Below are positions 1-44,500 of a stretch of 64,000 nt of DNA, one piece after another. Both the position numbers and the translations under genes were made by a program. This DNA is from Xanthostigma xanthostigma (lineage: Eukaryota; Arthropoda; Insecta; Raphidioptera; Raphidiidae). Under the pieces are notes generated by a model. It was not told the origin of the DNA. It did no database searches and saw only the letters and a program-made list of their open reading frames with translations. The DNA is taken from assembly GCA_963575645.1 (NCBI GenBank), contig OY754466.1, positions 39,340,001 to 39,404,000 on the forward strand, read 5' to 3'. How positions within the stretch are numbered: position 1 is the stretch's first letter; the number at the start of each line of letters is the position of its first letter.

Positions 1-766
1 ACGAAGTTAATGTCAGCGACAGAGCAACCCGAACGGGCACACACTGAGGGCACACGTCTTTGCGAGTGGTCGTGTGGAGAGCGCATGTTTGGAATGTTAA
101 TGTTTATCGCTGGAGATCATTGTTAATTTTATTTGCAGGTTATTTCTTTTAGTGATCTTTGTTCATTGATTGTTTGACGCCGACTCAAAATTACTTAGAT
201 ATACAAGACTGTCACATACGTTCAACTACTTAGATAGAACTTAGTTAAATAAAAAGATTTATTATTTTTTGCTTTTCAGTTTTTCGGCGGTTTCATTTTT
301 TTGTTAAAAAGTTTTTATTTTATAATTTTTTGTGGCTATATAATTTATAATTGTAATACACAACTCAGCATGAGAATCTGTGAGTGAACAATAAATCATT
401 CCTATTTTCCCACCCTTAGGGTAGAAATCTTTTTCCAAATTTATATGAGACCAACTTCGAGGTATACCCTATCCAATAAAAAAAGAATTATCAAAATCGA
501 ACTACTCTGTAAAAAGTTATGCGTGGTCATACATTACAATCTGTGAGTGAACAATCAATAATCCCGTTTTCCTACCCTTAGGGTTGAAATTTTTTTTCCA
601 AATTTATATGGGACCAACTTCGGGGTATACCCTTTCAAATAAAAAAATAATTATCAAAATCGCACTACTCTGTAAAAAGTTATGCGTGGTCATACATAAA
701 TTAAAAAAAAATATATATATACGCGTCGACTTGAGAACCTCCTCCGTTTTTGTTTTTCGTCGGTTA
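1..766. repeat. Left-edge repeat block with RTE-like LINE 3' tail
   Basis: No gene is visible. Two direct copies of a block of about 170 bases (near 370-540 and 541-700) share the words CCCTTAGGGT, CCAAATTTATATG and GTTATGCGTGGTCATACAT. The second copy ends in CGACTTGAGAACCTCCTCCG followed by GTCGGTTAAAA, a tail commonly seen on RTE-type LINEs in Lepidoptera (recognised from memory, not searched). Homology to the corresponding intron of gene C begins only at about 767, so this block is private to the left copy. I recognise nothing in bases 1-360. Confidence 0.5.
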
Positions 767-2130
767 AAAAATTAATTAGTATCTACGTTATATAGGTATA
801 TAAAATTTTTATTGTCATTTAAATAATAATACATTCAATTTAATACAAATAGTAGTTTAGGAGTTTTCAAATTAGGTATTTTTTAACAAAAAAGAATAAA
901 ATAATAGGGAATAAGCGAAGCAGGTCGTTTCGACGCCGATGGTTCGACGCCAACGTTTCGACGCGTGGTAAGTTCGACGCCGTACGTTTCGACGCGGGGT
1001 CAGTTCGACGCCATACTCTTTTTTCGTGCTTTTTTTTATTTTTAAAATAACTTTGCATCATCATTCAAATAAATGCGATATGCCTGATATAATATAACAT
1101 ATATTTTATATCTATATATATAAAACAAAGTCGTGTTAGTTACACCATTTATAACTCAAGAACGGCTTAACTGATTTTAAAAAACTTTTTTTTGTTCGAT
1201 TCTAGTAAAGTACAACGACAGGTTTTTCTTATCAACGAGGTAATTCCTGTTGAATTATTTGTTATAGCTTTTTGGGTTTCACATTAACATTTATTATAAT
1301 ATATATAAACTTATTTATTTGAATCACGCTTCATATATATAACATATAAAATATATATTATATTATATCAGGCATATCGCATTTATTTGAATGATGATGC
1401 AAAGTTATTCTAAAAATAAAAAAAATACGAAAGAAAGTACGGCGTCGAACTGACCCCGCGTCGAAACGACCTCGCGTCGAAATGACCACGCGTCGAAACG
1501 TTGGCGTCGAACCGTTGGCGTCGAAACGTTGGCGTCTAACTGACGTGTACCGGGAATAAGTATAGGTGGAAAGTATTAGGGACAATGGGAAAAGTTTAAA
1601 AAAACCCATATCATCTCGATGCACATGTTATGTTTATGATGTAGTCAATTAAAATTTATTGTTTTAGAAATATGTGCTTTAGTCTTTTATGCTTATATTT
1701 TTTGTATTTCAGAGTTGATACTTGGTAGTTTCCGATTTTATTAATGAGACGATTTGGGTTTTTTCGCATTTTTCAAAGAATTTTTTAGACATTTCTTTTA
1801 TAATATCAATTATGTATCTACTTATTTTCTAATAAAATTAAGTTTGAATTTATATTTATTAACGAAATATTAATGAAAAATTAATAACAAACATTTTTTT
1901 TTGTTTGTTATTAATTTTTCATTAATATTTCGTTAATAAAATAAATTCTAACTTAATTCTATTAGAAAATAAGTAGATACTAATTAATTTTTATATTTTT
2001 TTGATTATTTCTGAAGAAGATCCAAATCCGGACCGAAACGTCATCTATTGAATTACAATTTTATAATTTTTGTTAATACTTATATAGTTTGAAAAAGTTG
2101 GTCGATAATTTTATTTATTTGTAGTATTTA
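767..2130. repeat. Foldback element abutting exon 4 of receptor A
   Basis: The arms read toward each other: TTAATTAGTATCTA on the left and TAGATACTAATTAATTTT near 1974. A shared end motif is TTGGTCGATAATTTTATTTA at 2099. The matching element upstream of gene C exon 4 (28905-29734) has both arms complete, whereas here the left arm is cut at 767. The right arm ends only about 20 bases before the splice acceptor of exon 4, so the element supplies the end of that intron. The same end motif recurs near 6700, 8610, 40420 and 51570. Confidence 0.6.
916..1551. mobile_element. TIR/foldback insertion with 9-bp target duplication
   Basis: It is flanked by GGGAATAAG on both sides (907-915 and 1552-1560), and gene C has a single GGGAATAAG at the empty site near 29171. 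Subterminal arms are built from many TCGACGCC and TCGAAACG words in opposite orientation on the two sides. Inside, 1030-1110 and 1335-1430 are also inverted copies of each other, around a core resembling a Helitron 5' end (TATATATAAAACAAAGTCG). A 9-bp duplication with long arms resembles Mutator-like foldbacks, but no transposase is present. Confidence 0.65.
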
Positions 2131-2152
2131 TTATATTGTTGTTTTTTAATAG

Positions 2153-5100
2153 GCTCTCAATGTAATCGGTGGGCTGTCGTTAATTTATTTAGATATCTTT
2201 GTAATAGTAATGAGCTACGCCATGACCGTTAAATTTCAACAGATCACCATTCGAATTTATACCACTCTGAAGAAAACGGTAATTATCTCTGTTAAAAACA
2301 TATATTTAATACTCCAATATTGCTAGTAGGGATCGAGAGAAAGACTTGACCATTACTGTGCAGACATATAGGCTGTGTGCACGAAGCCTACTGGCGCCGC
2401 TACTGGGTAATAGAGAATTATTGAACTCACTTATGGAAATCGCGACATGTTTTTAAGGTGATAAGACAAAATCTTTAGTTGGCCATGATATGTTAAAAAA
2501 AATGTGATAAGAAAAACTGATGTTAATTTGTTTACACTGACAGTGGAACGTCAAATTAGGGCGCCAACGGTCTTTATTTTAGTTAAATCGCCATCAGCGC
2601 AACAGTCTGGAACACAACAAGCATTTCCAGATCGCTTAATTTTGCCCATGTTTTCTTTGTACCTAATTAAAAAACTTAATAAAATTATAACTATTTTCAC
2701 TTTTAATAAACATTGCTCACTGACATACGGAAAATTTGAGCTGAAGTTTCCCCTAGTGCTCACCACGAACGTTCGCATCGAAAAATTTATAACTCCGTCT
2801 CTCTGCACATAGCCCATATGCATCTGTATCACTTATTGTACGCTGAGTCCCATGCGCATGTCCGTGAATGTATGTCACAACTGGATTTTAAGCTGTGAAT
2901 GGAGATGGCTTGCCCTACTCCACTTGCCAATTGCCCCACTACAGACGCGAGGCTTGTGCACAACGGGTCAAATACCAAGAATGAGATAGAAACATGAGCG
3001 TTTGCTGTCTCACTTACGGCCACTAGCAATATAGGAGTATTGAATATAATATATATGGTTAAGAATATGACTTGAGTATGTCATCAGTTTCATTTGTTAC
3101 AAATTTATTTTTTAGATAACAACTCAGTCATTTTGGAACGAAATCAGACGCGACACTTGCTATGTCAGAAACATGTGTCAAACGCTCGACAACACCATAT
3201 CGACTTTAATATTATTTTCATTAGCATCCAATTTATTTTCAATATGTTTAACATTATTTCAAAGCTTCAGGTACGTGTTTTTTTTCAGAATTTGATATAC
3301 CTACATTGACTTATTTTGAACTGATCAACGTGCGGGTTGTACTTGATGTTGTACATTTTAACACCTTGACGGACAAACCGACTTAGACCGCCATAAAGTT
3401 TGACACGACAGCTGAAGCCGTCGTATACTACGGAACGTTTTATAGCCAGACGGATGTAGCAATCTATTTTTCAGTGTAGAATACATACCCTGTGTGCTTT
3501 GTGTCACCGTACAAAGATCTACTAAGGCAATATTGTCACAACATAACAGCTTATAAAACTAATTCAATTTCAAACATATGAAAAAAATTATAGTGTCAAA
3601 ATTGGAACAAAACTGAATTTTTAAGTGTCCGTCAAAGTGTTAAAAGATTTTAAACATAACATTTATTTTGAAATTTTAACTGTTTATTATCAACAAAAAT
3701 CGGTATCTCGTAAGATATAGTGGATGTTTATAACATATTTAAATTTGATTTGTGATATTAATTGTGGTCGGCTGTAAGATATCTGAGACATATTATCCAG
3801 CACATCAACGATGGGCAACTTCCAAAGAGCAACCAGCACTAATCTTTATTGTTTCAAGGTAAATTTACGAAGTGAGACAAGTATAGTTTTCAAGTATAAC
3901 AAAAATATTTTCTCTCATTTTCTTTTACAGTCGCTTATTGGAGCTATGGAGGGTAGAGGTAACCATCTTATATGGGGGTAAAACTGAAAAAGTGTCCATC
4001 TAAAAGCGTCAAATAGCAGTTCAAAAAGTGACCAGAATGGCCCTAGTATAGAAAAAGTGTTTAATGTAAACCAATGTAAATTCAGCAGGTGTAGACGAAA
4101 TGGTGTGCTGAAAGGAAAACATACCGCTTAACTAGCGGTATGTGCTCTATTTAATATTTTTGGCGACTAAAGTAGTTAATATATTCACAGTAAATAAAAC
4201 CTTAATCACTTATGTAGTCAAGCATTATTTGGTAAATATAACCTATAAAATCATCAGAGAGAAATTGACACCCTTCCTACGGCAGCGCCATCTTAATTTC
4301 ACTCTTTTTGACGGACACTTTTCATACACAGATATAATAGTTCTCCTTATCCTCTACCCTCCATAATTGGAGCTACCTGGAGAGTTCCTAGGAGCTCAAA
4401 CAGCCGAGGTTGCCCAGCGCTGCAGTACATGGACACTCCGGCAAACAGAATTGTTAATACAGCGTTTAATATCAATTTTAGAGATGCGCATGCAGAGTCA
4501 TTTGTGTCGGAAATTCATTATGTTTATTATATCTATTCATTCACCTTAAGAACGGTACGTGTACTGTGGGTCACCATTGCTGCTTCAAAAGTCTACGAGG
4601 AGAGTCGCCGACCTCTGACACTTTTATTTTCTGTACCACAACGAGAATATTTTATCGACGTGAGTATATGAAAATACCAAAAACTACAATATTTTTATTT
4701 AGGTATATTCGCAAAAGTAATGCCTAAGAATTGTGAGAGCACATTCCCGAAATTCGACCAACTATTTACAGGCCAATATACAAATAAAAATTCCAGCCAA
4801 TTGGGCGACGGGATCATTCCAACTTCAAAAATGTTGACATTTGATTATAATAAAGAAAATAAAATTTCTGATATCGCGTGAGGTGACGCGGGTAATGGCT
4901 AGTATTCAATATGATATTAACTATTCGTTACCATGGTTACCTACATAATATGTTCCACGTCATGTAAAAATTAATCAAAGCATGCCTAACTAGTTTATTT
5001 CTATGGATATAATAATAATAATCATTACAATTAGATTCCAAATACAGCATATTTTCACTGAATTAGTGAAAGCATAATAATATTAAACGATTATCGTAAT

Positions 5101-8100
5101 AATATTTTTTTAGAAGGCTTATATATAAGAAAAATTTAAATGTCACTGTCGGGACTTGAACCCGAAACAACCAATTTTGCGTTGGCTGAGTTACATTACT
5201 CTACAGTGCCCACGATGTTTCGGGTTCAAGTCCCGACAGTGACATTTAAATTTTTCTTATATATAAGCCTTCTAAAAAAATATTATGACGATAATCGTTT
5301 AATATTATTATGCTTTCACTAATTCAGTGAAAATATGCTGTATTTGGAATCTAATCGTAATGATTATTATTATTATATCCATTGTAATAAATTACAGCAA
5401 TTAAAAATCTTTCTCTTGGTTTATTAGTTTAGTTTATTTCTGATAGATCCTTAATACAAAAGAGCGGCTGATTTCTTTTTATTTTCAAAATATTTCCGAA
5501 ACTATAAAGTTTAGATAAAAAAAATTTTTAACAAAACTTTCTTGCAAAAATAAATAGAATAATAAGCCGTTATGAAAAGTATACCATTATTATATAAAAA
5601 AACACCGTTATAGCATATATCTCTTCTGCGCATGCGCCGATTTACCCCAAAAACAATAGGGCTCTTCATACTTGCATACCAAACATCCTCCCAAAATTTG
5701 GATTCAATCCGCTTATCCGTTTGACCTGTATCGTGTTCACAGACAGACTAACAGACACACAGAGATTTTCCAAAAATATGTTTTTTGAATTCGGGGGACC
5801 TCAAAACGGAAAGATATTGTAAAATTTTTGAAAAGTGATTTTTGACCTAAATTAGTACCAATCCCCACTTGTGGGTTGGAATGGTAAAATTAGTCGATTT
5901 CTGACTCAAGCGCAAGTGTTGTAGAGGGAAATTATTATATTCAAGTGTGTAAGTTAAACGCCAAAGACCTCAGCTGTTTAGCGTCTATAATCTACAATTT
6001 ATGACCCTTTTTGAAGGATGTTAAATTTTTCTTTAAAACTAGTCTTTACTGCTTTCAGATTTAAACGGTAACAATAATATATGTTTACTTCTGCTGTATG
6101 AGTAATTTTAAATATTATGTTTCAGGCTGAGCGGTTAACCGAACAACTTTGTACCGAGCAAATAACATTAACAGGCATGAAATTCTTCTCAATGAAACGG
6201 TCTGTCATATTAACGGTAATTTAAATTGAAAACTAACGGAATTTTCCATTAAATTCTTTTCAAGATTTTAAAAATCATAACCATGAGACCATTCGCGCGT
6301 CTCAAGATATTCTTGTAAGATATACTGCCAGAATATTGATCGAATTGCTCGAGATTAGTGATGTGTCGCTCCTGAGCGAGTCGTTCATAATGAATGACTC
6401 CTTTCACGGAGCGAAGCCATAGTCGCTCTTTTTTGTGAATGACTCACTCCGAGCGCCATTGCTCTATGCTGAGCTGTCTTATACTGTTGCAGTCGCACAT
6501 TTATAGAGCGCACACAGCACAAACCACAGAGGCACTAGTGAATTTTGCACGTACGGAGTTATCTTTGCCGAGTCATTTAATGTTGAATAACACACTGTAA
6601 GTGCAATAGTACTAAGCTTACAGTGACTTAAACCATTCACATTGACGTCGTTGACAAATATATAATATTGTAACAATAAACATTATTATTCAATAAATAA
6701 AATTATCGACCAATTTTTCAGACAATATATTATAGACCGGGCTCTCAGTGGAGTTCCGTTTGCAAAAATTGCGGACCTCAATCTGACTTCTGATATATAT
6801 TGTATAGATCCCAGACATCCTACAAACAAATGTTGCCAACCAGTTTTGTGGTCCCCCTCCCCCTCCCCGGCAATTAAAAATGGCATACTACAAATAAAAA
6901 AAAAAAATCATCAAGCCATGCCGTGTGGGGTATCAAATGAAAGGGCTTATTGAGTAGATCACGAATATATAGCACACTATAACATTTTTTACACTTTCTC
7001 TAAGAATTTTTTGAAAATTTACTAAAATGCTCCATTTTCGAGTTAACTTTAAACCACTATAGATTGAAAACTAATGAATATATTTATATAATTATTATTT
7101 TTAATAACTAACAATAGTCCATTGTTTACGAACCAATAGTTCGTACAGTGAAAATGTTGCACGGGGGAGCGGGGGGAGCAATCAAAGATGGCGAGTTTCG
7201 ATATTTCAATATATTTCTTAAAATTTCGGACTCTCAGTGGAGTTCCGTTTGCAAACATTGCGGACCTCAATCTGACTTCTGATATATATTGTATAGATCC
7301 CAGATAGCCTATAAACAGATGTTGCCAACAAGTTTTGTAGTCCCCTCCCCCCTTCCCCTCCATCACAAATATTACTGATAAATTACAAAGATTTTTGGTT
7401 TTAATATGGAATTTCATTAGAAAATTAGTACTTATGTGTCTATATGTGCCATAAATAAAAAACAAGGCAGTAAAGTAAACCAATAGAACATAATATGTAT
7501 TTATTTTGATGCAATTTTACGAAATTTCAAATTTACGAAAAAATGCTTACACGCATGCAAGTAACAGTTTGATTTTGTTACAAGTTTTTACAATTATTAT
7601 TTACACATTTACACAAGGATATACATTTCAGTGCTGCTTTTTTGCAAGTACACGGTTTTATTAAAAAGTCAGGTAGAGATTTTTTTGTCATTTGCTTTGG
7701 GTAAAGGTTTCCTTCGCGTAACTCGTAACCAAATTGAAAGATTAATATGCTCAAATATTGGTTCAAAAGAGCTTTTCCATATATAAACTTGAGCGGATGC
7801 TCTCAAGCAGTGTAAATGCAATGCATCAGAGGTACATATAATTCTTGTCAAATTTAAGGCAAAGCCTATGTTTTGGCACAACAATTTGTGTCGAAGATCA
7901 TCTGCTGTTGTTTGTTGCTTAGAAATTAAGTAACTGCAAACTTTTTCGAGATCTGTAAATTGCTCACTAGTTAAAAGCCCATTACCCATAGCAGAAACTG
8001 CATCCTGAACAAAATCCAGATTCGCGGCGTTCAACATTTGTGTCTTTGTACCTATGCGACATGTGGTGTCGCAGCCAGTTACAGAGTGCAACCCTGGTAA

Positions 8101-10152
8101 AATATCACATATATTTTCGCCAAGACTTCGTGCAGCTAAATGGCACCCAAGAAAACGGTTTTTCTTTCGTGATCCCTTAAACCACAAAGCGCGGCAACCT
8201 AAATTTTTAAGTTTATTCGAGAAATAAAGGCCTAATACAAAGATATCGGTGTCAGGGCTTAGAATAATTATCTCTGCACTGTCGTTGTGTTTGACAGAAT
8301 GAAAAATATGGCAGAACATTCTTGAATCTAATTTTGACAATATTACAAAAAAGAGAGAGCGTTAATGTAACAAAGCTTGCTACAATGGTTTTGACGAGCT
8401 GGCAACGTCGCATGACACAGGACCGCGCGCGCGCGCGGCAACATGGCTTTTTACGATGTCGATAGCATCAGGTAGATGAATCACAAAACATTTCGCGGTC
8501 CGCTATTTTTGCAAACGAACATCCCCTTGTAGCCTGCTCTATTAACAAACAATATAAAATTAATACATTATAATGTATTAATTTTATATTGTTTGTTAAT
8601 ATATTGTCTGAAAAATTGGTCGATAATTTTATTTATTGAAGAGTTCTAATCAGACGTTAATCAAAGATTTAAACATTATTATTGTTAAGCTTTTATTATA
8701 CTTTATAGTTTATCCGAAATGCGAATAATATAAGATCAGAATCTTATGAAAATGAGCTCAGAGCTGAGTATGTGTATTGTGCTGTGCAATGCTAAGTGAC
8801 TCCTGAGCATGCATGATGACAGTTCACACCTCTGCAGTCTGCACTTTTGTGTAGTGCATACTGTCTAGTGTCGCTCCTTTGAACGACTCGCTCTGAGCGA
8901 CTCTTTTTAGTGAGCGGAGCGCACGGAGCCAGCTCTCAATGAAGCGTCATGTGGACACATCACTACTCGAGATATCGCAAGCAACTTCAAGATAGAAAAG
9001 GGAACCAGTCAGGAGCTCGGAAAGCCGGACGAAAATGGCTGCCTACATGGGGAAAAACGGCAACTGCACTCTTGTGTTCTCCTTTCTCTCTTTTAGATAT
9101 ATTCGCAGGCATAACTTTTATGCGTGGAACGGATATGCTTTGCATTCATTGATTAGTCGTTCCATTAATCAAACCATACTATAATTATGACTCACTCCTT
9201 ACTATAGATGATTTCGTCGTGTCGAGATTGTCGATTATCTCCTCGCCTCAAGCTTCGAGAAATCGGAATATAGAAATCATTAATTAATTGTTGTTGTTCT
9301 AATCCATTTTAAAATATTGTATATGATTAGTTATTGGGCACTTGGACAAATTCATTAATATTCCGCTGAACAGATTTAGATAAAATTTGGGAAGGAGTCC
9401 ATCCTGAGGAATGTCTAAAAAATCCTGAAGGAGGTGAAGTAGGGGATGAAAGTTTGTATGGAGAACCCATCATTTATCTAGTTAGAGATATGAACATTCA
9501 TATTTAAGCTTTCGGTAAGAAATGAAGAATTATTTCAGCGTTTTTGCAAAATCATCACTCAAGGGGGTAAAATAATAAAATAATACGGGTTGTCGCTGCC
9601 GTGCAAAGTCGCGGGTAGCGGCTAGTATCTAATAATTATTTCATTATCCAAATACCCAATAACTTATAATATATAATTTATTAATGATGTTTGGATGAAG
9701 AAATTCTTCGTAGCATAGGATCAGGCAAAAAAGCAATACAATGGTGAAATTGCATTTATTATGCTGACGTTTCGATAATTATTTTTTACATCTTCGGAGC
9801 TCAAATGCAGTTTAGGGTAGTATTTTCAATCAACAAGAAAACTATCCTAAGCCGCATTTGAGCTCCGAAGATGTAAAATATAACTGTCGAAACGTCAGCA
9901 TAATAAATGCAATTCTACCATAGTACCTATTGCTTTTTTCTGATCCTATGCTACGAAAAATTTCTTCATCCAAGCATCATAGTCAACCAAGATCATATTC
10001 ATCTCTGCGTTGAGATAAGTTTTCTTAATAATTGATTAATATTCCGTAGTATCAAGCCCTAATTGGTTATTACAAAATTAGAACCTATGGGTTGTTTTTA
10101 GGTTGCTGCAAGTATAGTTACATACGAGCTGGTTCTAATTCAATATACCTAA
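2153..10152 (+). CDS. Sugar gustatory receptor A, exons 4-8 (5' part outside window)
   Basis: C-terminal half of a seven-transmembrane insect gustatory receptor of the Gr5a/Gr64 sugar clade. These proteins form ligand-gated cation channels in taste neurons. Exons: 2153-2278, 3116-3270, 4482-4659, 6126-6215, 10102-10152. All have AG/GT borders and the phases join without stops, giving 199 codons. Visible marks are FVIVMSYAMTVKFQQ (exon 4), LDNTIS and a membrane helix (exon 5), YEESRRPL (exon 6), ITLTGMKFFS (exon 7) and the family signature TYELVLIQY before the stop (exon 8). The product ends QYT, against QYQDG in gene C. Exons 1-3 are not in the window. If the tandem-duplication model is right, they lie just to the left. 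Across exons 4-8 about 29 of 594 aligned bases differ from gene C. The very long last intron holds a hAT element. Confidence 0.88.
3945..4365. mobile_element. TIR element with 8-bp duplication in intron 5 of A
   Basis: Terminal inverted repeats TATGGAGGGTAGAGG and CCTCTACCCTCCATA are flanked by the duplication ATTGGAGC (3937-3944 and 4366-4373). The same insertion sits in gene C at 33439-34177, so it predates the duplication. The 8-bp duplication fits hAT or P-type elements, but the superfamily is not settled. Confidence 0.7.
4813..5885. mobile_element. CATTCCAAC-ended element in intron 6 of A
   Basis: The ends read ATCATTCCAAC on the left and GTTGGAATGGT on the right. Homologous copies are at 34614-35183 (same site in gene C, so older than the duplication) and, inverted, at about 55094-55729. 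The copy here is enlarged by the tRNA-like foldback at 5003-5429. No coding capacity is seen. Confidence 0.6.
5003..5429. mobile_element. Foldback retroposon-like insertion with tRNA-like core
   Basis: It is flanked by a 12-base direct repeat TAGTTTATTTCT (4991-5002 and 5430-5441). The site is uninterrupted in the related sequence near 55535. Arms of about 170 bases fold back on each other around 5180-5215. On the minus strand about 5142-5212 can be folded as a cloverleaf: acceptor with 6 of 7 pairs, D stem GAGT/ACTC, anticodon stem GCCAA/TTGGT with a seven-base loop CGCAAAA, and T arm TCGGG-TTCAAGT-CCCGA. U33 is replaced by G and the A box is poor, so it is tRNA-derived rather than a working gene. 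The long direct repeat suggests target-primed insertion. Confidence 0.6.
6356..8965. mobile_element. hAT element in last intron of receptor A
   Basis: The termini TAGTGATGTG and CACATCACTA are inverted and typical of hAT elements. The 8-bp duplication CTCGAGAT is exact (6348-6355 and 8966-8973). Gene C keeps the empty site with one CTCGAGAT (near 35641), so the insertion is private to the left copy. No hAT transposase is visible. Nested inside are inverted ends (about 6690-6731 and 8583-8640) of the family that also flanks exon 4, and two direct repeats of about 130 bases (6735-6865 and 7228-7360) sharing GTGGAGTTCCGTTTGCAAA. Confidence 0.85.
7578..8340 (-). pseudogene. Frameshifted PIN-like / CXC-tail protein remnant
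   Basis: Minus-strand coding remnant carried inside the hAT-bounded insertion. The first frame (8340 down to about 7740) has ILSPDTDIFVLGLYF, which resembles the acidic strand of PIN-like nuclease folds, then LPGLHSVTGCDTT, the hallmark of a large family of uncharacterised proteins repeated in insect and cnidarian genomes. The second frame (about 7740 to 7578) continues with FGYELREGNLYPKQMTKK and ends in a cysteine-rich CTCKK...CKCVNNNC tail like tesmin/TSO1 CXC regions. A one-base indel near 7735 separates the two frames, so the gene is broken. The N-terminal part of the usual protein is missing. Family membership is from memory of its motifs, and the function is unknown. Confidence 0.6.
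9320..9635. mobile_element. Helitron-like fragment in last intron of A
   Basis: It ends in TCGCGGGTAGCGGCTAGT, the hairpin-plus-CTAG form of a Helitron 3' end. The counterpart in gene C is at about 36450-36782, so it is older than the duplication. The 5' end is less clear here than in the gene C copy. Confidence 0.5.
9735..9960. repeat. Foldback repeat, intron 7 of A
   Basis: Inverted arms around 9825 share TGCTGACGTTTCGA, GAGCTCAAATGC and their complements. It is also present in gene C at about 36895-37125, so it predates the duplication. Confidence 0.6.
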
Positions 10153-11989
10153 GGACGATTAAGGTTTGTTTACATTAATCTGAGTAGCTAAATTTTAGTT
10201 CAAAATCTAAATCATAATATGCTGTATTGTGATTAGAAATTTGTAGAGAAAACGATTTGTTCTGTATAAAAATAAAAATAATTAAATTGTCAAAATTTTT
10301 TTTATAATCATTGATTCTTTATGTTTGCAGATTTAGTTGATAATTTTTTCGTTCTTAAATATTAATTTGAAATTAAAAATATAACATTTAAAAGTACTAC
10401 ACGTTACAGTTGTTATTTCAGACAAGACGGTCATATTCTAATTTTTCCTTCCCAATATAGTAAAATCAAAAGTTTTGCATGTATAAAGGCCGCTGCACAC
10501 GAGGCTAGAAACGCTGCTAGATTCCTTGCTAGATGTGTCTACTAGTTTTCTAACGCTAGTTTTCTTGTTTGCTTTTATGTGCGCGCTTCACACGAGACGT
10601 CTTTTCAAGCTTATTTTGTGGATAGATCTGGTGCGCGCGCAGTAGCATTTCAAATATGAACAGAGCAAAACGTGTCTGTTGACTGACTCTGAGCAGAATG
10701 ACGCCATTTTGGTCTGTGGGCGTTTGTTCAAGTCGCCCACGTAACAAGATACTGCTTCCTGATTGGTTCTTGCTCATACCTAGCAGCAGACCTAGCAAGA
10801 AAAATAGCCCCTGTTCTAATTTTAAAACCTATCTTGTGAGCTAGCAGGCGAGTCCGCAGTGACGTCATTTCCAGCTTCGTACCCAGCCGGCCAGCAGAAC
10901 TCCTAGCAGCGTTTCTAGCCTCGTGTGCAGCGACCTTTAGACAATTTGATTTCTATTACAATACCTTCCCAATATATTGGGAAGTTAAAATACTTAACGT
11001 TGATTTCACTGCAGTATTGCCTGCAATTTATTTACCTACTGCAGACTCAGGGTATAAATCAAATCATTCATTATAAAATATTCATTTTCAATGTGTTTTG
11101 TTGTGTCTTTATGAGTGGTTAAATTTAATATACACTTTTCAGTATTTTGGATGTCTAGATAATTTCCTCTATTGTTTTTTTATCATAGACGTTTGCAGAA
11201 GTTTTTCCAAGGGGGAGGCTAGACACCGGGGAGTGTCAAATATATGAAATACCACTCAAAAAGAAAAGGGAATCCGAGCGGTTTCCTCTGGATAGTTTTC
11301 CAAAAATTGTGTGGCCTAAGAGTACTTTTAGATAATTAAGCACGTAAAGCTTTACTAACAGCTTTGATATTTTTTGTTAATTATTAAGAATTGTTGATTT
11401 TAAGTAATAAGAAAAATCGCAAGTTTGTGGACAAAAGTTATATTTATAAATGTACGACGTTTCGTCTATAAATTTATACTTTTTCAAGTACAAATTGAAA
11501 ATTATTTAAAACAATAATTATGAAAATTATTATTATTATTGTTTTAAATAATTTTCATATTGTACTTGAAAAAGTCTAAACATTTCTCGACGTTTCATGA
11601 ATTAATTAATTTTAAGGAAATTTGGTCCACATGTTGAAATCCATCACCGCATGAAGCTTATTTAAAATGGGCCTAATCGGATCATTTTAAGGGTGGTTTT
11701 AAGAGTTGAAAAATATTTTTGGGCTGAAAAATATTTTTGGGCTCAAAAATATCGAAAAATGTGCTACCAAAATTTGAATAAAATCGATCCGACAGGACCG
11801 GACTTACAAATTTTATGAAAACACTAGTTTGCGAATAGGGATTCATTTACTGATGAAGGGTGTGTTTTTTGGTGCAAACGCTGGATTGATATTAATATTG
11901 AAATTAAATAAAAAAGTATTACTTTAAGGGAATGTATTAAGGTATTAGGTACTTCCGAAAAAAATTTAAAAAAAACTTTCGAACTGGCG
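10153..11989. other. A-B intergenic region
   Basis: No gene is seen. It holds a CACACGAGG-family MITE (10486-10938), a foldback with the AT-rich core ATTATTATTATTATTG (about 11440-11580) and a stretch colinear with 37316-41557 between C and D. Because the downstream gene B is broken, any promoter here would now drive only a transposon-fused fragment. Confidence 0.6.
10486..10938. mobile_element. CACACGAGG-family MITE, copy 1
   Basis: About 450 bases with terminal inverted repeats AAGGCCGCTGCACACGAGG and CCTCGTGTGCAGCGACCTT. It is shared with the other duplicate at 37625-38095. The family has about ten copies in this window and no coding capacity. Confidence 0.75.
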
Positions 11990-14503: not shown

Positions 14504-14658
14504 TTAACTTCCCGCTTAAAAAAAAAATTTTTTTTTTTCAAAAATCGGGAAGTTATTGGTTTCACCCCGATTTTCGAAAATCGAGTTTTCGCCAGATATT
14601 GACGTTTTGAGGTCCTAGGAAGCTATTGAAACTATTTTGGCGATGATGTCCGTAGGAC

Positions 14659-14707
<49 letters not shown>

Positions 14708-34000: not shown

Positions 34001-37000
34001 CAGTAAATAAAACCTCAATCACTTATACGTAATCAAGCATTATTTGGTAAATATAACCTAGAAAATCATCAGAGAGAAATTGACACTCTTCCTACGGTAG
34101 CGCCATCTTAATTTCACTCGTTTTGACGGACACTTTTCATACACAGATACTGTTCTCCTTATCCTCTACCCTCCATAATTGGAGAGTTCCTAGGAGCTCA
34201 AAGAGCCGAGGCTGCCCGGCGCTGCAGTACATGGACTCTGCGGCAAACAGAATTGTTAATACAGCGTTTAATATAAATTTTAGAGATTCGCATGCAGAGT
34301 CCTTTGTGTCGGCAATTCATTATGTTTATTATATCTATTCATTCACCTTAAGAATGGCACGTGTATTGTGGGTCACCATTGCTGCTTCAAAAGTCTACGA
34401 GGAGAGTCGCCGACCTCTGACACTTTTATTTTCTTTACCACAACGAGAATATTTTATCGACGTGAGTATATGAAAATACCAAAAACTACAACATTTGTAT
34501 TTAGGTATATTCGCAGAAGTAATGCCATGGATTGTGAGAGCACATTCCCAAAGTTCGACCAACTATTTACAGGCCAATATACAAATAAAAATTCCAGCCA
34601 ATTGGGCGACGGGACCATTCCAACTTCAAAAATGTTGACATTTGATTATAATAAAGAAAATAAAATTTCTGATATCGCGTGAGGTGACGCGGGTAATGGC
34701 TAGTATTCAATATGATATTAACTATTCGTGGCCATCGTTACCTACATAATATGTTCCACATCATGTAAAAATTAGTCAAAGCTTATTTATGACAGATCCA
34801 TAAAACAAAAGGGCGGCTAATTTTTTTTTATTTTCAAAATATTTCCGAAACTATAAAGTTAAGAAAAAAAATAGAATAATAAGCCGTTATGAAAAGTATA
34901 CCATTATTATATAAAAAGTACCGTTTTAGTATATATCTCTTCTGCACATGCGCCGATTTTCCCCAAAAATAATAGGGCTCTTCGTACCAAACATCCTCCC
35001 AAAATTTGGTTTCAATCCGCTCATCCGTTTGATCTGTATTGTGTTCACAGACTAAGAAACAGACAGAGTTTTTCCAAAAATATGTTTTTTGGATTCAGGG
35101 AGCCCCAAAGAAAATTGTAAAATTTCTGAAAAGTGATTTTTGACCTAAACTAGTACCATTCCCCACTTGTGGGTTGGAATGGTAAAATTAGTCGATTTCT
35201 GACTCAAGCGCAAGAGTTGTAGAGGGAAATTATTATATTCAAGTGTGTAAGTTAGACGCCGATGACCTCAGCTGTTTAGCGTCTATAATCTACAATGTAT
35301 GACCCGTTTTGAAGGAGGTTAAATTTTTCTTTAAAACCAGTCTTTACTGCTTTCAGATTTAAACGGTAACAAAGATATGTTTACTTCTGCTGTATGAGTA
35401 ATTTTAAATATGTTTCAGGCTGAGCGGCTAACCGAACAACTTTGTGAAGAGCAAATAACATTAACAGGCATGAAATTCTTCTCAATGAAACGGTCTGTCA
35501 TATTAACGGTAATTTAAATTGAAAACTAACGGAATTTTCCTTTAAATTCTTTCCAAGATTTTAAAAACCATAACCAGAAAACCATTCGCGCGTCTCGAGA
35601 TATCCTTGTAAGATATACTGCCAGAATATTGATCGAATTGCTCGAGATATCGCAAGCAACTTCAAGATAGAAAAGGGAACCAATCAGGAGCTCAGAAAGC
35701 CGGACGAAAAAGGCTGCCTACATGGGGAAAAACGGCAACTTTACTCTTGTGTTCTCCTTTCTCTCTTTTAGATATATTTCACAGGCATAACTTTTATGCG
35801 TGGAACATGCTTTACATTCATTGCTTTGTCATTCCATTAAACAAATTGTACTATAATTGGGCTTTTGAATGAAATTTTTTTTCGTCATAAATGGAAAGAT
35901 CGTATATAAGTTTTATAATAAAACTATTTTTCTTTTTTTTATTTTCGTTATAATTCAAAAGTTATATCAAATTAAAAATAAATTTTTGTACCCAGTTCCG
36001 AGAACGCGCCGATATTTCCCGAACATAATGTGACGTCATAATGTTTTAGTCAATACACATGTAGAATTGATAGTATACTGCGTATATACATTTTACCATT
36101 ATGACGTCACAACTGTCAAAAACAATTTTAGTGCGTTTGCAGTCACGTGATTTTTTTTAATATTTTATCAATTTTAAATTGTTTATCATTAATTTAAAAA
36201 AAGTTTTTTGAAAGTTTTTCGCATCGATTATCAGTATTATTTATAATAAAGTTTTAAAATACAATAAAAAAATCGATAATTATTTTTTTTTCAAAAGCCT
36301 AATTATGACGACTCTCTCCTTACTATAGATAATCTCGTCGAGCCGAGATTGTCAATTCTCCTCGCCTCAAGCTTCAAGAAATCTCGACTTTACGGAATAT
36401 AGAAATAACTAATTAATTGTTGTTGCTATAATCCATCTTAAAATATTTATATTTTAATATTATAAATGCGAAAGTATAATTCTGCCTGCCTGTCTGTCTG
36501 TCTGCTACCTTTTTATGCCTAAACTGCTGATCAGATTTAGATAAAATTTGGGAAGGAGTCCATCCTGAGGAATATCTAAAAAATCCTGAAGGAGGTGAAA
36601 TAGGGGATGAAAGTTTGTATGGAGAATCTATCATTTATCAAGTTAGAGATACATATTTAAGCTTTTGCTAAAAAATGAATATTTATTTCAGCGTTTTTGC
36701 AAAATCATCACTCAAGGGAGTAAAATAGTAAAATAATACGGGTTGTTGTTGCCTTGCAAAGTCGCGGGTAGCGGCTAGTATCTAAAAATTATTTCATTAT
36801 CCAAGTACCCAATAACACTAATAATATATAATTTAATAATGATGTTTGGATGAAGAAATTCTTCGTAGCATAGGATCAGAAAAAAAGCAATAACTATGGT
36901 AGAAATTACATTTATTGTGCTGAAGTTTCGACAATTATTTTTGTTATCTTCGAAGCTCAAATGCGGTTTAGGGTAGTATTTTCAATCAACAAAAATACTA

Positions 37001-37315
37001 TCCTAAACCGCATTTGAGCTCCGAAATGACAAAAATAATTGTCGAAATGTCAGCATAATAATAGCAAGTTCTACCATAGTATTGTTTTTTTCTGATTCTA
37101 TGCTATGAAAAATTTCTTCATCCAAACATCATAATCAACCAAGATCATATTCAGCTCTGCGTTGAGATAAGTTTTCTTCATATGTAATTAATTAATATTT
37201 CCGTACTATCAAGCCCTAAGTGGTTATTACAAAATTAGAACCTATTGGTTGTTTTTAGGTTGCCGCAAGTATAGTTACATATGAGTTGGTTCTAATACAA
37301 TATCAAGACGGTTAA
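22086..37315 (+). CDS. Sugar gustatory receptor C (complete, 8 exons, 427 aa)
   Basis: Complete receptor of the insect sugar clade, expected in the dendrite membrane of sweet-sensing neurons as a subunit of a sugar-gated cation channel. Exons: 22086-22425, 24275-24463, 26079-26227, 29766-29891, 32323-32477, 34284-34461, 35419-35508, 37259-37315. Splice borders are all AG/GT and phases (1,1,0,0,2,0,0) match D and E. The joined frame is 428 codons, normal for the family. Landmarks: ALMPVSGI then LSFDW near residue 60-80, ILARRWPNFMSKW in exon 2, EYSLWKG in exon 3, CQTLDNTIS in exon 5, YEESRRPL in exon 6, ITLTGMKFFS in exon 7 and TYELVLIQY at the C terminus. In exon 4 the motif SYAMT, kept in A, D and E (SYAMT), is SSVMA here. 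The start is the first in-frame ATG; later Mets at codons 11 and 25 are alternatives. A possible polyadenylation signal AATAAA lies at 37418. Confidence 0.92.
22590..22660. repeat. Small hairpin repeat with T-arm-like core
   Basis: Inverted arms AAACAATGTCACGTCGGGAT and ATCCCAACGGTGACATTGTT enclose GGGGTTCGTATCCC, close to a tRNA B box. Its layout echoes the core of the foldback at 5003-5429 (TGTCACTGTCGGGA with TTCAAGTCCCGACAGTGACA). It lies in intron 1 of gene C. Confidence 0.5.
23018..23706. mobile_element. Foldback element in intron 1 of C
   Basis: Imperfect inverted arms of about 230 bases (23018-23252 and 23475-23706) surround a spacer of about 220. The arms contain several copies of the self-complementary word CAACGCGTTGTGG. 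No coding capacity is seen. Confidence 0.75.
23755..24072. mobile_element. Helitron-like element in intron 1 of C
   Basis: It starts near ATCTCTCTCTCTATTC and ends GGACCGCTAGT, matching the TC...CTAG form with a T following. The interior contains GGCTGGACCGATTTTGATG, common in short insect Helitrons. Ends are approximate. Confidence 0.5.
24684..25191. mobile_element. TIR MITE in intron 2 of C
   Basis: Imperfect inverted ends are CGGCCTCTTGTTAACG and CGGCCGTTAACAAGAGCCC. The GC-rich subterminal sequence contains GACGGGCGACGGGCCGACG. The target duplication is not clear. Confidence 0.5.
25562..26031. mobile_element. CACACGAGG-family MITE, intron 2 of C
   Basis: Ends are AAAGGCCGGTGTGCACGAGG and CCTCGTGTGCAGCGACTTT. 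It stops about 50 bases before the exon 3 acceptor at 26078. Confidence 0.75.
26613..26704. repeat. Short hairpin in intron 3 of C
   Basis: GATAATGTAGAGCACTTATT and AATAAGTGCTCTACATTATC form an exact stem of about 23 bases with a short loop. The flanks are AT-rich with no gene seen between 26228 and 27860. Confidence 0.6.
27880..28295. mobile_element. CACACGAGG-family MITE, intron 3 of C
   Basis: The right end CTAGCCTCGGTTGCAGCAAC (28272) and internal family order are clear. The left end is degraded. It shares CACGTGGGAGACATGAACAA-type central sequence with other copies. Confidence 0.6.
28905..29734. repeat. Foldback element abutting exon 4 of receptor C
   Basis: Both arms are visible: TAAATAAAATTATCGACCAA on the left and TTGGTCGATAATTTTATTTA on the right. 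The internal landmarks ATGACGTTTCGG and CGGACCGAACGTCAT are inverted. It is the counterpart of 767-2130, so it predates the duplication. Confidence 0.7.
30714..32290. mobile_element. Private foldback insertion in intron 4 of C
   Basis: Inverted ends of more than 30 bases begin AGAGTGCCCATCGGCAAAAA and close TTTTTGCCGATGGGCACTCT. The arms extend to about 30867 and from about 32125. Gene A lacks it: TATGTCATCAGTTTC reads through at 3078. A TAACTTCCCGC element is nested inside. A second hairpin with AGGTGTCAGACATTTTAAAT lies near 32040-32110. Confidence 0.7.
30868..31969. mobile_element. TAACTTCCCGC-family element, four internal repeats
   Basis: Same ends as 14504-15318, nested in the insertion above. 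The internal unit with GCGTCGA...CCGCAAA occurs four times (near 31305, 31447, 31601 and 31759), against two in the other copy. Confidence 0.7.
32682..33241. mobile_element. Private MITE in intron 5 of C
   Basis: Imperfect inverted ends are TAGGGTAGGACGGGGGGAT and GCCATTCCCCCTCCCTCCCC. It is absent from gene A, where CCAGCACATCAACG is continuous near 3798. No clear target duplication was found. Confidence 0.6.
33439..34177. mobile_element. TIR element with 8-bp duplication in intron 5 of C
   Basis: Counterpart of 3945-4365 with ends TATAGAGGGTAGAGG and CCTCTACCCTCCATA. The left flank is ATTGGAGC and the right flank ATTGGAGA, the last base having changed. A hAT MITE is nested at 33628-33993. 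Confidence 0.7.
33628..33993. mobile_element. hAT MITE nested in the older TIR element
   Basis: Inverted ends are TAGAGCTGTAA and TTTTACAGCTCTA, with the exact 8-bp duplication ATATTCAC (33620-33627 and 33994-34001). The empty site is preserved in gene A (TATATTCACAGTAAA near 4180). The interior is rich in GTAACGAAT-type words. Confidence 0.85.
34614..35183. mobile_element. CATTCCAAC-ended element, intron 6 of C
   Basis: Ends ACCATTCCAAC and GTTGGAATGGT. It is the same insertion as in gene A but without the tRNA-like foldback. Confidence 0.6.
35868..36299. mobile_element. Private TIR element in intron 7 of C
   Basis: Ends are GGGCTTTTGAATG and TTTTCAAAAGCCT. Gene A lacks it (ACTATAATTATGACTC near 9178). 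It is a non-coding AT-rich element of about 430 bases. The duplication is short and ambiguous (ATT or TAATT). Confidence 0.65.
36450..36782. mobile_element. Helitron-like element in intron 7 of C
   Basis: Contains CTGCCTGTCTGTCTGTCTGC near the start and ends CGCGGGTAGCGGCTAGT. It is shared with 9320-9635. Confidence 0.5.
36895..37125. repeat. Foldback repeat, intron 7 of C
   Basis: Inverted arms with GTAGTATTTTCAATC at the centre. Counterpart of 9735-9960. It ends about 130 bases before the last exon. Confidence 0.6.
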
Positions 37316-37624
37316 GATTCGTTTACATTATGAATAGCTAAATTTTAGTTTGAAATCTAAATCATATACTGTATTATGATTAGGAATTTGTAAACAAAAC
37401 GATTTGTTCTGTATAAAAATAAAAATAATTAAAATGTCAAAACTTTTTTTATAATCATTGATTCTTTATGTTTGCAGATTTAGTTGATAATATTTTCGTT
37501 CTTAAATATTAATTTGAAATTAAAAATATAACATTTAAAAGTACTACACGTTACAGTTGTTATTCCAGTCATATTCTAATTTTTCCTTCCCAATATAGTA
37601 AAATCAAAAGTTTTGCATGTATAA

Positions 37625-38095
37625 AGGCCGCTGCACACGAGGCTAGAAACGCTGCTAGATTTTTGCTAGAACTGCCTACTAGTTCTCTAGCGCTGGTTTT
37701 CTTGATTGCTTTTATGTGCTCGCTTCACACGAGATGTCTTTTCAAGCTTATTTTGTGAATACATGTGGTGCGCGCGCAGTGGCAGTTCAAATAATATATA
37801 AACAGAGCAAAACGTGTCTGTTGACTGACTCTGAGCAGAATGACGCCATGTTGGTTTGTGGGCGTTTGCTCAAGTCGCCCACGTGACAAGATACTGCTTC
37901 CTGATTGGTTCTTGCTCACACCTAACAGCGGATCTAGCAAGGAAAATAGCCCCTGTTCTAATTTTAAAATCTATCTTGTGGGCTAGCAGGCGAGTCCGCA
38001 GTGACGTCATTTCCAGCTCCGTACCCAGCCTACCGGCCAGCAGAACTCCAAGCAGTGCTTCTAGAAGCGTTTCTAGCCTCGTATGCAGCGACCTT
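37625..38095. mobile_element. CACACGAGG-family MITE downstream of C
   Basis: Ends AAGGCCGCTGCACACGAGG and CCTCGTATGCAGCGACCTT. It is the counterpart of 10486-10938 and so inserted before the duplication. Confidence 0.75.
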
Positions 38096-41000
38096 TAGAC
38101 AATTTGATTTCTGTTACAATAACTTCCCAATATATTGGGAAGTTAAAATACTTAACGTTGATTTCACTGCAGTATTGCCTGCAATTTATTTACCTACTGC
38201 AGACTCATGGTATAAATAAAATCATTCATTATAAAATATTCATTTTCCATGTGTTTTGTTGTGTCTTTATGGTAAGTGGTTAAATTTAATATACACTTTT
38301 CAGTATTTTAGCTGTCTAGATAATTTCCTCTGTTGTTTTTTTATCATAGACGTCTGCAGAATTTTTTCCAAGGGGGAGGCGAGACACCGGGGAGTGTCAA
38401 ATATATGAAATACCACTCACAAAGAAAAGGGACCCGAGCGGTTTCCTCTGGATAGTTTTCCAAAAATTGTGTGGCCTAAGAGTACATTTTAGATAATTGA
38501 GCACGTAAAGCTTTACTAACAGCTTTGATATTTTTTGTTAATTATTAAGAATTGTTGATTTTAAGTTTATAAAGGATTATCACTTTGACTATAAAATTCA
38601 GTTGAAAACAGAAAATAAAATAAGAATCTTTGTTTCATTTTAAGAACATTCATTTTCAAATAAAAGAAAAACATGATTAGATTAACTTGTCGGGATAAAT
38701 ATTATAATTTTACTATATACCGAGCATAGGAATAAAATCGCAATCGAACCATTAGGGTGCAAACATATACTTCTGTCTTTTTTTAAGTCGTAAGACCTCG
38801 TTGGTTCTGATTGGCTAGCGCCATAAATAAAGACAAGACTTTTGATAATGCTAATATATCTATATTTATACTAATTTATAAAGCTGAAGAGTTTATTTGG
38901 TTGTTTGTTTGGTTGAACGCACTAATCTCAAGAACTACTGATTCGAATTGATTTTTTTTTTGTTGGATAGTTCATTTAACACGCTACGACCAATAGGAGC
39001 GGAGCATCAATGAAAAATTTTTATAAAATACTACTCAAAATTTGTCCGTCCGACAAAAACTTTTGAATGGTAACTCCGATCATCATGGGACACAACATTC
39101 ATCTCAGTAAACTAAGATGAACGTGCGTATAATATATATTGTCGGAATAACCAAGGAACTACTTCGAAAAAAGAGACACAGATATATTTTCGATACGCTT
39201 TGTTGCCTTCGCTCACCGCATATTGAGTAAATAGCCTGAATTCTTCATATAGTAATTATTATATATATGGGCTGTATTTATATTTCCCACAAAATTTTTG
39301 TTTTGAATCTGATTTTCCTATCGCTCCACTTTTACAATTTCTGGTGGGAGATATTATGTCTCCTTCCTGCGGGCGCCCATGGCTCTTATAATATTGCATT
39401 TACAGTATCGATTGATGATGTACCGGTGGTGCATATTTTCTAGTCTTATCCAACATTTGTGCACTGTACATATATTGAGTGATTGGCACTAGCACTTATT
39501 TACCACACAAAATAATAGAATTCACATTTCAGAGTACCATCGAATCAATCAATTTTAAATTGAATTACATTTGAAACATTTTTGAACGAATACACTGAAT
39601 AGTAGAGTCCTTGAATTATTTCCAGCTTTGAATGGCTTTTTGTCATGAAAACAAAACATTATTTTGAAAAATAAAACCGTTAGAAATATTGCGACAGTTG
39701 TTTATGCTTTGCCTATGAAAAAATATTACTTTGTTTTCAAGCTTCTCAAATTACTACAATTAAAATTATAGTACGTATAAACCATATTTTTTTATTATTA
39801 TTATTTGTTAATGGCCTGACTCTTGTCTTTGGCCAGTTGCCGTATTGCTTAGCTTGATTTTATGTTATCTTTATTTCTTTATAGTTTCATTAGTCCTTCC
39901 TTCAAATATTGGTAGATTGCCTTGTAAGTATTACAGTCTGTTTTGGTTAGAACCTGGATAACATCATCCCAGTTAGTGCACATTTGTATATTATTATTAT
40001 TTGTTAGTAGGTATCTTATGTGTGAATAAAGAGGGCACAGACAGAGGATGTGATTTATATGGTACCGTTTAAACCATGCTCTCTTTGGTTATAATATAAT
40101 AGTACATAGCAGCATACTCGTAATGTTTCACTTAACCTTAGCTATGATGCTACCATAAACTGTTATTCCATGTATTAAAGCAATACATAATAATAATAAT
40201 AAGTCAAATCTTTGATTAACGTTTGATTAGAACTCTTCAATAAATAAAATTATATTTCAATATTAAAAAAATCTTTCACGAATTTCGTTAAAAATAAATA
40301 GAAACTAAATAAGTATTAATTATTTTTTTATATTTTTAGATTCATTCTGAAGAAGATCCAAATCGGGATCGAAACGTTAATGTATTAATTATATTTTGTT
40401 AATATATTGTCTGAAAAATTGGTCGATAATTTTATTTATTGAATAATAATAAGTAATTGGAAATAATTAATATTAAAAACGATACAATTTTCAATCTTCA
40501 TGATTTTTAGTAAGTATTAATTAGTTAACCGCTCGATAACACGCGTTCTGTTTTCAATCGTCCCTTACTCCTGCACATCGTGATGCGATATGTTAGATCT
40601 CAAAATATGTTCAGTTTGGAACAAGTAAGATATAAAGAGAACAAACTCCCATTAAGTCGGCATTTTCTTCCCCAAACGCACCGTAGATGTTGACATAACG
40701 AAAATACTGTATTTTTACTGTATTTGCCATAAGGCACTTACACTATTGGCGTCGGTCGGATGGCGGGACCTAGGAGTCGGACCAAAATTTCTCGACGTTT
40801 TATGAGTTAATAGATTTTAACATGTTGAAATCAATCACCGCACGAAGCCTATTTAAAATGGACCCAATCGAACCATTTTAGGATCGTTTTTAGAGGTTGA
40901 AAAATATTTTTGGACTCAAAAATACCGAAAAATTTCTCCGAATCATTTCAAAACTGAAATTTAACCCTTTAGTAATGATTTAAATGTGCTACCAAAATTT

Positions 41001-41370
41001 TAATAAAATCGGCCCGACAGGACCAGACTTACAAATTTTATGAAAACACTAGTTTGCGGATAGGGATTCATTTACTGATGAAGGGTGTATTTTTTGGTGC
41101 AGACGCTGGATTGATATTAATATTGAAATTAAGTAAAAAAAGTATTACTTTAAAGTTTAAGGGAATGCATTAAGGGGTTAAATTTTTAATTTTGTTCAAA
41201 AAGAAAGTTTAAGTTCACATAATAAAACCACAATGCCTGTATTAGCAAATACACTATATTGTCGGCAGGGTCGGGTACTGCGACCCGAGTTTTTTTTTAA
41301 TTGTGTTAAATCATGTAATAATTAATACGGATCAACTGAATTTTATTACTTCCGAAGAAAATTTAAAAAA

Positions 41371-41541
41371 ATTGGTTGTCTGTAAAGTCGGTTTACGGAC
41401 GATAGTTTTACGTGATAACGTATTCCGCTCGAATATCATATTTAATAATCACGCACAGGGTCAGGCGGAACGTTAGGAACGTTACGCTTTTTCGTGCGTG
41501 CAGCTGGTGTTTCATCAATTTATAAGACGTTATCACGTCAA
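41371..41541. mobile_element. Short MITE ending 16 bases before the start codon of D
   Basis: It contains TTTTACGTGATAACGT and ACGTTATCACGTCAAAA as inverted ends, plus GGAACGTTAGGAACGTTACG. The left duplicate copy lacks it and runs straight from TTTAAAAAAAACTTTCG into the ATG (about 11965-11990). It therefore forms the 5' leader or proximal promoter of gene D. Confidence 0.65.
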
Positions 41542-41557
41542 AACTTTCGAACTGGCG

Positions 41558-44500
41558 ATGTTGAAGTATTTAAAGCTAAGGATTTCATCGCCTAACACGG
41601 AGGAACGCACCAACTCATTGCATTCAGCAATATGTCTGACGTTGATGACGGCACAGAGCATCTGCTATATGCCGGTATCAGGTATCACAGACCCAGATCC
41701 ACGGAATCTTTCATTTAGATGGATGTCATGGCGAGTTTTATATACGTTTATGGGCTTAGCTTATTCTTTAGTATTCCTCGTAACGGTTCTTTGCGGAAAT
41801 ACTGATCAACTATTGGTAATGAAGTTTGGTGAGTCTAATTGTACACACTCTTTTTATTTTAGATTTTCTCTAATTTTAAAAGTTCAGATCGTGTTTTAGA
41901 AATTATATTAAAATAAAAGAGAAACGCATTTTCAAATTTAAATATGCATCGTAATAAAATTGACGTATCACTCGATTTTTTCCTGTTGCAACTTAATGTC
42001 AAAGAAACCTTTGAACTCGAAGTATGTTTTGATTTTTAATGAAACCAAACTAATTTTGATACAATCTGACGGTCGTGAACAAGTATGGCGAAGACCTGGG
42101 GTGTATTGTTGGTGGTTGAACAAGTTATTTTTGAGTTAATAATACCTTTTAATTTAATTTAATTATATTTGTTTACAAACACCAACGTCGACATATGCCA
42201 GCTTGCGCTGGCATAGTCACCGCCTGTCCACTACATAACTCCTTCCTTCCTTTCAATATACATATATTTATATCATATTATTGAAATGCAATCCATGCGT
42301 TATTAACTAGAACAATTAAGTAAGTGTTATAATTAATACTACCTTTGCAGTTTACATTTCAATTAATATACGTAACTTAACCTACTTAATGTATGTATCC
42401 ACTACAGGGGAATGGTTTTCTGTCTGCGGACGTTCAAGCAAATGCGTTCCCAGAACACCAAATGGTTCCCTTGCAGAGATAAAATTTTTCTTCAAGCCTT
42501 CGCCATACTTGTTCACTACCATTTGATGTTTCAAACATACTCTGGTTTCACCAGTAAACAAAACAAGCTTTCTGTTCAAATATTTTTAACAACAAATATA
42601 TATAACATTAGTTTGCTGTTGTTGTTATGAAACACACATTGTTACAGTTATAATGCAATATTCGAAAAAAATATTTTCAAACAATGACCCCAAACTTCCA
42701 CTATTGCGGCGAATGAGTTATCAAAAACTCTACAATAAACAATCAATCGTTCTCAAAACAAAGCATTGTATGTCACATACTCCGAGAGCTAATTTTTACA
42801 TTAGGTATATCGGTGTACCTTCACTCAAATGAGAGCTACTTCTAAAAGTGAATTAAATGTGAAATTTTTCCTTATTGTTTACTAGAGTAAGAATGTGTGT
42901 TTGATAAAAGGGATTCAACATTCTAAATATACATATAAAGTGAAATATTTTAGTTCAAGGTGGACTCTTTTTTTCGTTTCTACATATCAGTGGTTGGTTA
43001 TTTTTGATTATTGCAAGACGATGGCCAACTTTTGTATGTAAATGGTCTGAAATGGAGAAGCAAATGTACAAGTACCCTTGCCATGTTAATCTGCGCATGC
43101 GATTTAATATAATAAATTTCACAATCCTTTTTCTGTCAAATGGTTCGTATAACTTTATTTTTTTTGTACGCTTTTTTATACCGTGACTAGTGCATCTGAG
43201 AACTATGTTACATCGGGCATAATAAAAATAATTAAGGAAGAAAACGAGTTTGTTTTGTTTTACAGTGGAACATTGCGCATTCATCTATTCTCTAGTACAG
43301 AAGAGTGGGTGCTCATTTTTCAATTGTGTCACTCTTGATGATTATTTACAAGGTCGATATGCTGCCATGTTTGAATTTACCGAATATACTCTATGGAAGG
43401 GCCTAATATTTGAGGTAAGACCGCTTTACACGAGGCTGGTTTTGTCGCTGGAATCATTGCAAGGACTTGTGCTGGCTGGCGCGCTGGCAGCGAAGATGGA
43501 AATGACGTCAGTGCGGGTTGGCGTGCGTGATCACAAGATTAATTTCAAAGTTAGAACCGGGGCTATTTTTCGTGCTTGTTTTGAACAAGAACCAATCAGG
43601 AAACAGTATCTTGTCACGCGGGCGACATGGACAAAAGCCTTACAAATAAACACGGCGTCGTAGTGTGTGTTCTGTTCAGAGACAATAACATTCGGACCAA
43701 ATCGCACCAAATCCGTCTACAAAGCCAGCTTCAATACACGCATCGTGTGAAGCGAAAACATAAAAGTCATCACGAAACTCAGCGCCACAGCCCGCTTGAA
43801 ACCAAACAGGCAAATCTGGCAAGGAATCTACCGGCAAAATCAGTCTCGTGTGCAGCTGTATCACAGTATAAATGTTAATTTATACACAACTATTCCATGT
43901 CTGCACTGTATTCTAAAAAAAAAATAAAAAGTTACCAGATTTTCATATAATATAACAGTTTATACATCATTCATGTCCTTGGCCTGTTGTGCCTCGGCCA
44001 CGAATAATGTAATCGCTGATATTTCCCGGTAAGGCCGTTTGTCCACCGCCGCCGTCACCGGGACGTCACCGAGAACGAGATGACGGCGCCGATTTAGCGA
44101 TACATACATTTACTATGGCCATGTGTCCACCGCACGCCCGTCACCCGAGCGCCGTCATCCCGGCCGCCGATGTTTCGAGTAGTTCGGCGTGACCGCTAGA
44201 ACTCGGCACGGTTTTATGACGGGCCGATGTGCCGGCAATACAAAACACGTTTGTTCTTGTCCACACACTACCGTCGCACCGCGCCGTTCGCCCGGTTTTT
44301 GTTTTGTCTATCATAAAATTTGTAAAAAAATGGCTAACAAATTCAAATACGATATTTATACATTAATTGAACTTGTAGAGAGTAAAGACTGTTTGTGGGA
44401 TAAAACAAAGGATGTGTCCAAAGATAAAATTTTGTGAAAAAATGCGTGGCGCGACAAAGCTCTAGAACTGAGCTCGCGGTGGACACACGATCGCCGTCAC

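Follow-up and report, generated by a model that had tools for sequence, protein, structure and literature searches.

Head-to-tail copies of a receptor gene segment in a sugar taste receptor cluster of Xanthostigma xanthostigma

A cluster of sugar gustatory receptor genes in Xanthostigma xanthostigma contains two adjacent copies of one segment in direct orientation, the end of the first joined to the start of the second, and a single head-to-tail tandem duplication very probably explains the locus. The process of tandem duplication is itself already well known. What the locus offers is a base-level record of one taste-receptor gene becoming two, in which both breakpoints, a by-product fragment and the decay of that fragment can be read.

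Two adjacent copies in a receptor cluster

The window, the whole 64,000-nucleotide stretch that was analysed, corresponds to C3:39340001-39404000 (C3 position = 39340000 + window coordinate, negative coordinates lying to its left). We analysed it together with 50 kb of left flank and 40 kb of right flank, 154 kb in all, and searched a genome of 623,323,696 bases in 28 contigs. The two copies and their junction are as follows.

-13253 to 17642, plus strand: copy 1, 30,896 bases, starting at C3:39326747; its in-window part is 1 to 17642 (17.6 kb); blastn chain
17643 to 43398, plus strand: copy 2, 25,756 bases; blastn chain
17640 to 17645, plus strand: head-to-tail junction 17642/17643, from comparison of the junction, left edge and right edge

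Self-comparison of the window gave plus-strand colinear matches from 767/29021 to 17642/43398 at 83-96% identity, bearing out the colinearity of 767-17642 with 29020-43398 that the first-pass annotation had described. With the flank added, the same order ran from -13253/17640 to 17642/43398 in 26 chain pieces. The in-window match starts at 767 because -193 to 766 and 26369 to 29020 are not shared, and 767 is not the start of the unit. Its left edge was found at -13253, where sequence like that of 17640-17795 starts beside unrelated DNA, and unrelated DNA likewise lies outside the right edge at 43398. The blastn chain and the edge comparison both place the head-to-tail join at 17642/17643, as had been proposed; the proposed unit of about 25.8 kb fits copy 2 (25.8 kb) and does not fit copy 1 (30.9 kb). 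No N bases occur in the window or in the 90 kb of flank, and the join of the copies is gapless.

About half of the sequence is colinear (14,626 of 30,896 bases in copy 1 and 14,625 of 25,756 in copy 2), leaving 53% of the first copy and 43% of the second unshared. Among the 25 gaps between chain pieces, those above 700 bases are wholly or mostly one-sided, with two exceptions (-13095 to -11381 / 17796 to 18582 and -193 to 766 / 26369 to 29020). On the plus strand, 17,276 bases of copy 2 are covered by matches to copy 1, a figure that includes dispersed repeats, and 14 of these matches reach at least 300 bases. As background, matches to the 36.7-kb left flank cover 434 bases of copy 2, none of them of at least 300 bases, and matches to the 60.6-kb right flank cover 2,994 bases, one of them of at least 300 bases. 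Because the flanks cover far less of copy 2 than copy 1 does, background repeats of the cluster do not account for the colinearity.

A tblastn search of the 154 kb with 17 exon peptides (E up to 0.01; up to 10 for exon 8) returned the exon sets of five genes and no sixth gene. Four of these genes yielded intact, splice-consistent models.

-6188 to -5879, -2319 to -2131 and -483 to -335, plus strand: gene A exons 1-3, left of the window; tblastn, splice-consistent model
2153-2278, 3116-3270, 4482-4659, 6126-6215 and 10102-10152, plus strand: gene A exons 4-8; tblastn, splice-consistent model; the whole gene encodes 415 aa (PF06151 E 1.7e-79)
22116 to 37315, plus strand: gene C, eight exons, 417 aa, intact (PF06151 E 3.8e-81)
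41558 to 51529, plus strand: gene D, eight exons, 404 aa, intact (PF06151 E 1e-81)
56151 to 64000, plus strand: gene E exons 1-5, outside the unit, with exons 6-8 right of the window, to 66343; the gene encodes 411 aa (PF06151 E 2.1e-94)

All three C-like exons 1-3 of gene A that had been predicted to lie left of the window are present there. Genes A, C, D and E each have eight exons with GT-AG borders and one common phase pattern; exons 2-5 and 7 are equal in length across the four (189, 149, 126, 155 and 90 bases), and exon 6 is 169 bases long in E and 178 in the other three. Every one of the four models matches Trehalose_recp PF06151, the family of insect sugar gustatory receptors, nearly full length (267.9-316.9 bits against a cut-off of 21), and no departure from that family was found in A, C, D or E. 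The best PDB match of C is Drosophila Gr64a (8ze0; residues 40-415, E 3.4e-37). On this evidence, A, C, D and E are intact genes of the sugar receptor family PF06151. A and C are 93.5% identical in amino acids, and each is 42.6-46.9% identical to D and E. It is uncertain where translation of A and C starts, since the first ATG of C is ATA in A; the next in-frame ATG was taken. Their C-termini differ as well, A ending in T* and C in QDG*, probably through a small indel at the 3' end that falls outside the frameshift count given below. Genome-wide, PF06151 gave 31 exon matches, 14 of them in this cluster (C3:39.33-39.40 Mb) and the other 17 on C1, C3 at 4.2 Mb, C8 and C10.

Divergence of the copies and a possible haplotype join

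Non-coding DNA differs between copy 1 and copy 2 at 656 of 11,639 sites (5.6%, K 0.059), counted over 17 of the 26 chain pieces, which were split at exons into 25 blocks, with nine short pieces dropped. Divergence is uneven among blocks (2.4% to 16.2%). It is lower over the final 1.2 kb up to the junction, where 25 of 856 non-coding sites differ between B and D versus 631 of 10,783 elsewhere (p 1.5e-4); subsequent gene conversion and variation in rate are possible explanations. The non-coding DNA also carries 103 indels, of which 82 are not multiples of three. Assuming a mutation rate near 3e-9 per site and generation, its age would be roughly ten million generations for the duplication as a whole.

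Between A and C, dS is 0.066 and dN 0.038 (17.0 and 36.0 changes over 415 codons), giving a dN/dS of 0.57, which does not fall significantly below 1 (Fisher p 0.086). Frameshifting indels number 0 in these 415 codons (1,245 coding bases, leaving out the last codons, where the lengths of A and C differ), versus 8.8 expected from the non-coding DNA (Poisson P 1.6e-4). This absence argues that both copies have been kept since the duplication, and both would presumably work as sugar receptors.

A false (heterotype) duplication, in which the assembly placed two divergent C-D haplotypes one after the other, would also be expected to show the order X-U-U-Y. Like the locus described here, the cases presented in the part of PMC9516828 drawn on consist of adjacent divergent colinear copies, and their marks are given there as half depth, gaps between copies, discordant read pairs and one-copy k-mers. 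According to the same text, a gap between false copies is usual and not obligatory, some being joined without one through sequence lacking read support (PMC9516828); its absence here is therefore no proof against a false duplication. In an excerpted Spodoptera study, moreover, gustatory receptors at least 90% identical were treated as alleles (PMC9339325), and A and C fall in that range.

The usual gap is nonetheless missing, with 0 N in 154 kb, and the high divergence and the decay of the fragment at the junction further set the locus apart from the false duplications of PMC9516828. Several features of the copies speak against a join: their non-coding divergence and indels, the large unshared portions of both, and the three lesions that fragment B has relative to D besides its truncation. 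A non-coding divergence of 5.6% is far above usual heterozygosity, a general figure that may not be this species' own. Taking divergence, unshared DNA, decay of B and lack of N together, a joined second haplotype appears unlikely, and we give it very little weight.

As a control for leftover haplotypes, the RNA polymerase domain PF00623 gave nine matches at four loci on four contigs; three loci are expected, and the count carries no firm weight for or against leftover haplotypes. With D exons 4-5 as query, a DNA search gave 48 matches from the best 40 of 1,737 candidates, and among these the window was the one full-length place, the other 47 matches covering a dispersed repeat only (query 471-677). 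An assembly error is a much poorer account of the extra receptor, which is very probably real; this bears on the counting of such genes.

A truncated receptor gene and its inserted element

The fifth exon set belongs to a fragment, B, which lies at the end of copy 1 and is interrupted by a mobile element.

11990 to 17642, plus strand: fragment B; start codon at 11990, exon 1 split and resuming at 15950-16208, exon 2 at 17199-17386, exon 3 at 17510-17642 and cut by the junction
12006 to 15949, no strand assigned: mobile element in B exon 1, 3,944 bp, with 10-bp terminal inverted repeats GAGCCCGTTT

The start codon of B is present but set apart from the rest of exon 1 by the insertion, which occurred at a TTAA 12 bases past the start, after the fourth codon. 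TTAA borders the element on both sides (12002-12005 and 15950-15953), and sites of this sequence are characteristic of the piggyBac superfamily. The TTAA-plus-terminus pattern was found at 217 places in the genome with at most two mismatches (105 forward, 112 reverse), versus 0 for a reversed control; the element therefore belongs to a repeated family.

Besides being truncated, B differs from D by three lesions: the insertion, a lost donor (exon 1 ends in GAGAGT where D has GTGAGT, a GT to GA change) and a 1-bp frameshift near the end of exon 2. B and D stop matching after 17642/43398, within exon 3 of D (43266-43414), as the first-pass annotation had noted. This exon contains the right edge of the unit, and the junction takes away its last 16 bases (43399-43414 in D) together with the splice donor. 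Exons 4-8 of B are absent. With introns kept and lesions that are disabling, B has the features of an unprocessed pseudogene, and it is a dead 5' fragment copy of D.

Since alternative 5' exons are known in the Drosophila receptors Gr28b and Gr39a, B might be thought to work still as an alternative first part spliced to C exons 3-8. Its intron phases are common to the paralogues, and its coding sequence differs from that of D at only 6 of 555 compared bases (185 codons, without the indel-bearing end of exon 2). Such a role is highly improbable, being disfavoured by a 3.9-kb insertion after codon four, an exon-1 donor that is GA and not GT, and a frameshifted exon 2.

Other repeats are scattered through the region. 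One element occurs at three places in the cluster (20606-21299, -4690 to -2801 and 41365-41544) with differing internal lengths; stretches of 63-79 bases are 100% identical among them, and it was perhaps recently mobile. In D intron 5, 47238-48322 holds two overlapping open frames like reverse transcriptase (FADD), which we take to be a LINE-type remnant. Left of the cluster, a tandem array at -40504 to -34719 (C3:39299496-39305281) has a period of about 450-460 bp and self-matches of 92-98%. Right of E exon 5, direct repeats of about 149 bp at 62465-63066 are about 94-96% alike.

Breakpoints and origin of the duplication

At the left edge, unrelated DNA passes into GAAATCATG; the junction reads TATGGAAATCATG and the right edge TATGGAAGGGCC. 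GAA (17640-17642) is the sole overlap of the two breakpoint sequences, and comparison of the junction and edges revealed no long repeat common to both unit ends. The junction sits 16 bases before the end of a receptor exon 3. Searching the genome with 17500-17800 gave three places (all three of three candidates scored): the query itself, D exon 3 (query 1-143) and the left unit edge at C3:39326747 (query 141-296).

These sequences leave next to no room for unequal crossing-over between paralogous receptor genes as the source of the duplication and of a chimeric B: although the junction falls within an exon, and exons of tandemly arrayed paralogous receptors might pair with one another, the sequence to its right matches the intergenic DNA of the left edge at -13253 and no receptor exon, reads SCFGIF and then a stop in the D frame, and has only GAA in common with the other breakpoint.

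Under the preferred reading, a single tandem duplication, the duplicated segment would have run from intergenic DNA upstream of a C-type gene to within exon 3 of the neighbouring D-type gene. With only three bases common to its ends, end joining or a replication-template switch seems the likely joining route, rather than recombination between long repeats, although a 3-base microhomology can arise by chance. A three-gene cluster would in this way have become A, B fragment, C, D and E, with the original D and E left intact and a truncated 5' copy of D lying between two complete C-type receptors. B would have been without exons 4-8 from birth and have gathered its further lesions since, while A and C kept open frames and the surrounding non-coding DNA drifted by about 6% and gained unshared DNA, including mobile elements.

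Duplication of one whole sugar receptor gene plus the start of the next is an ordinary growth route for such families. In Drosophila yakuba, tandem duplications ignore gene borders and leave fragments, according to the portion of PMC5460883 used here, and the duplication described here likewise cuts through a gene and leaves a fragment. The duplications treated in that portion are polymorphic within the species, whereas the copies here are about 6% diverged and the fragment is degenerate (PMC5460883). The excerpt of the Spodoptera study (PMC9339325) similarly links growth of the receptor family to tandem duplication among mobile elements; it deals mainly with bitter receptors, and here the breakpoints have no long repeat in common.

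Four of the five strictly derived residues of C lie within ten positions of exon 4 (29766-29891), as the changes F232M, Y238S, A239V and T241A, where A, D and E agree. C also sits downstream of the remnant D-type 5' region, B. From these two features, it is conceivable, if doubtful, that C has been diverging from A in function since the duplication and may differ in ligand range or expression. A relative-rate comparison counted 5 A-derived and 11 C-derived residues under a lenient rule (p 0.21, not significant) and 2 and 5, with 21 unresolved, under a strict one.

Elsewhere in the assembly, the mitochondrial-looking contig C28 has 12 TGA codons inside its COX1 match, and COX1-like stretches with stops at C6:1195571-1196020 and C2:16906869-16907126 are perhaps nuclear mitochondrial copies.
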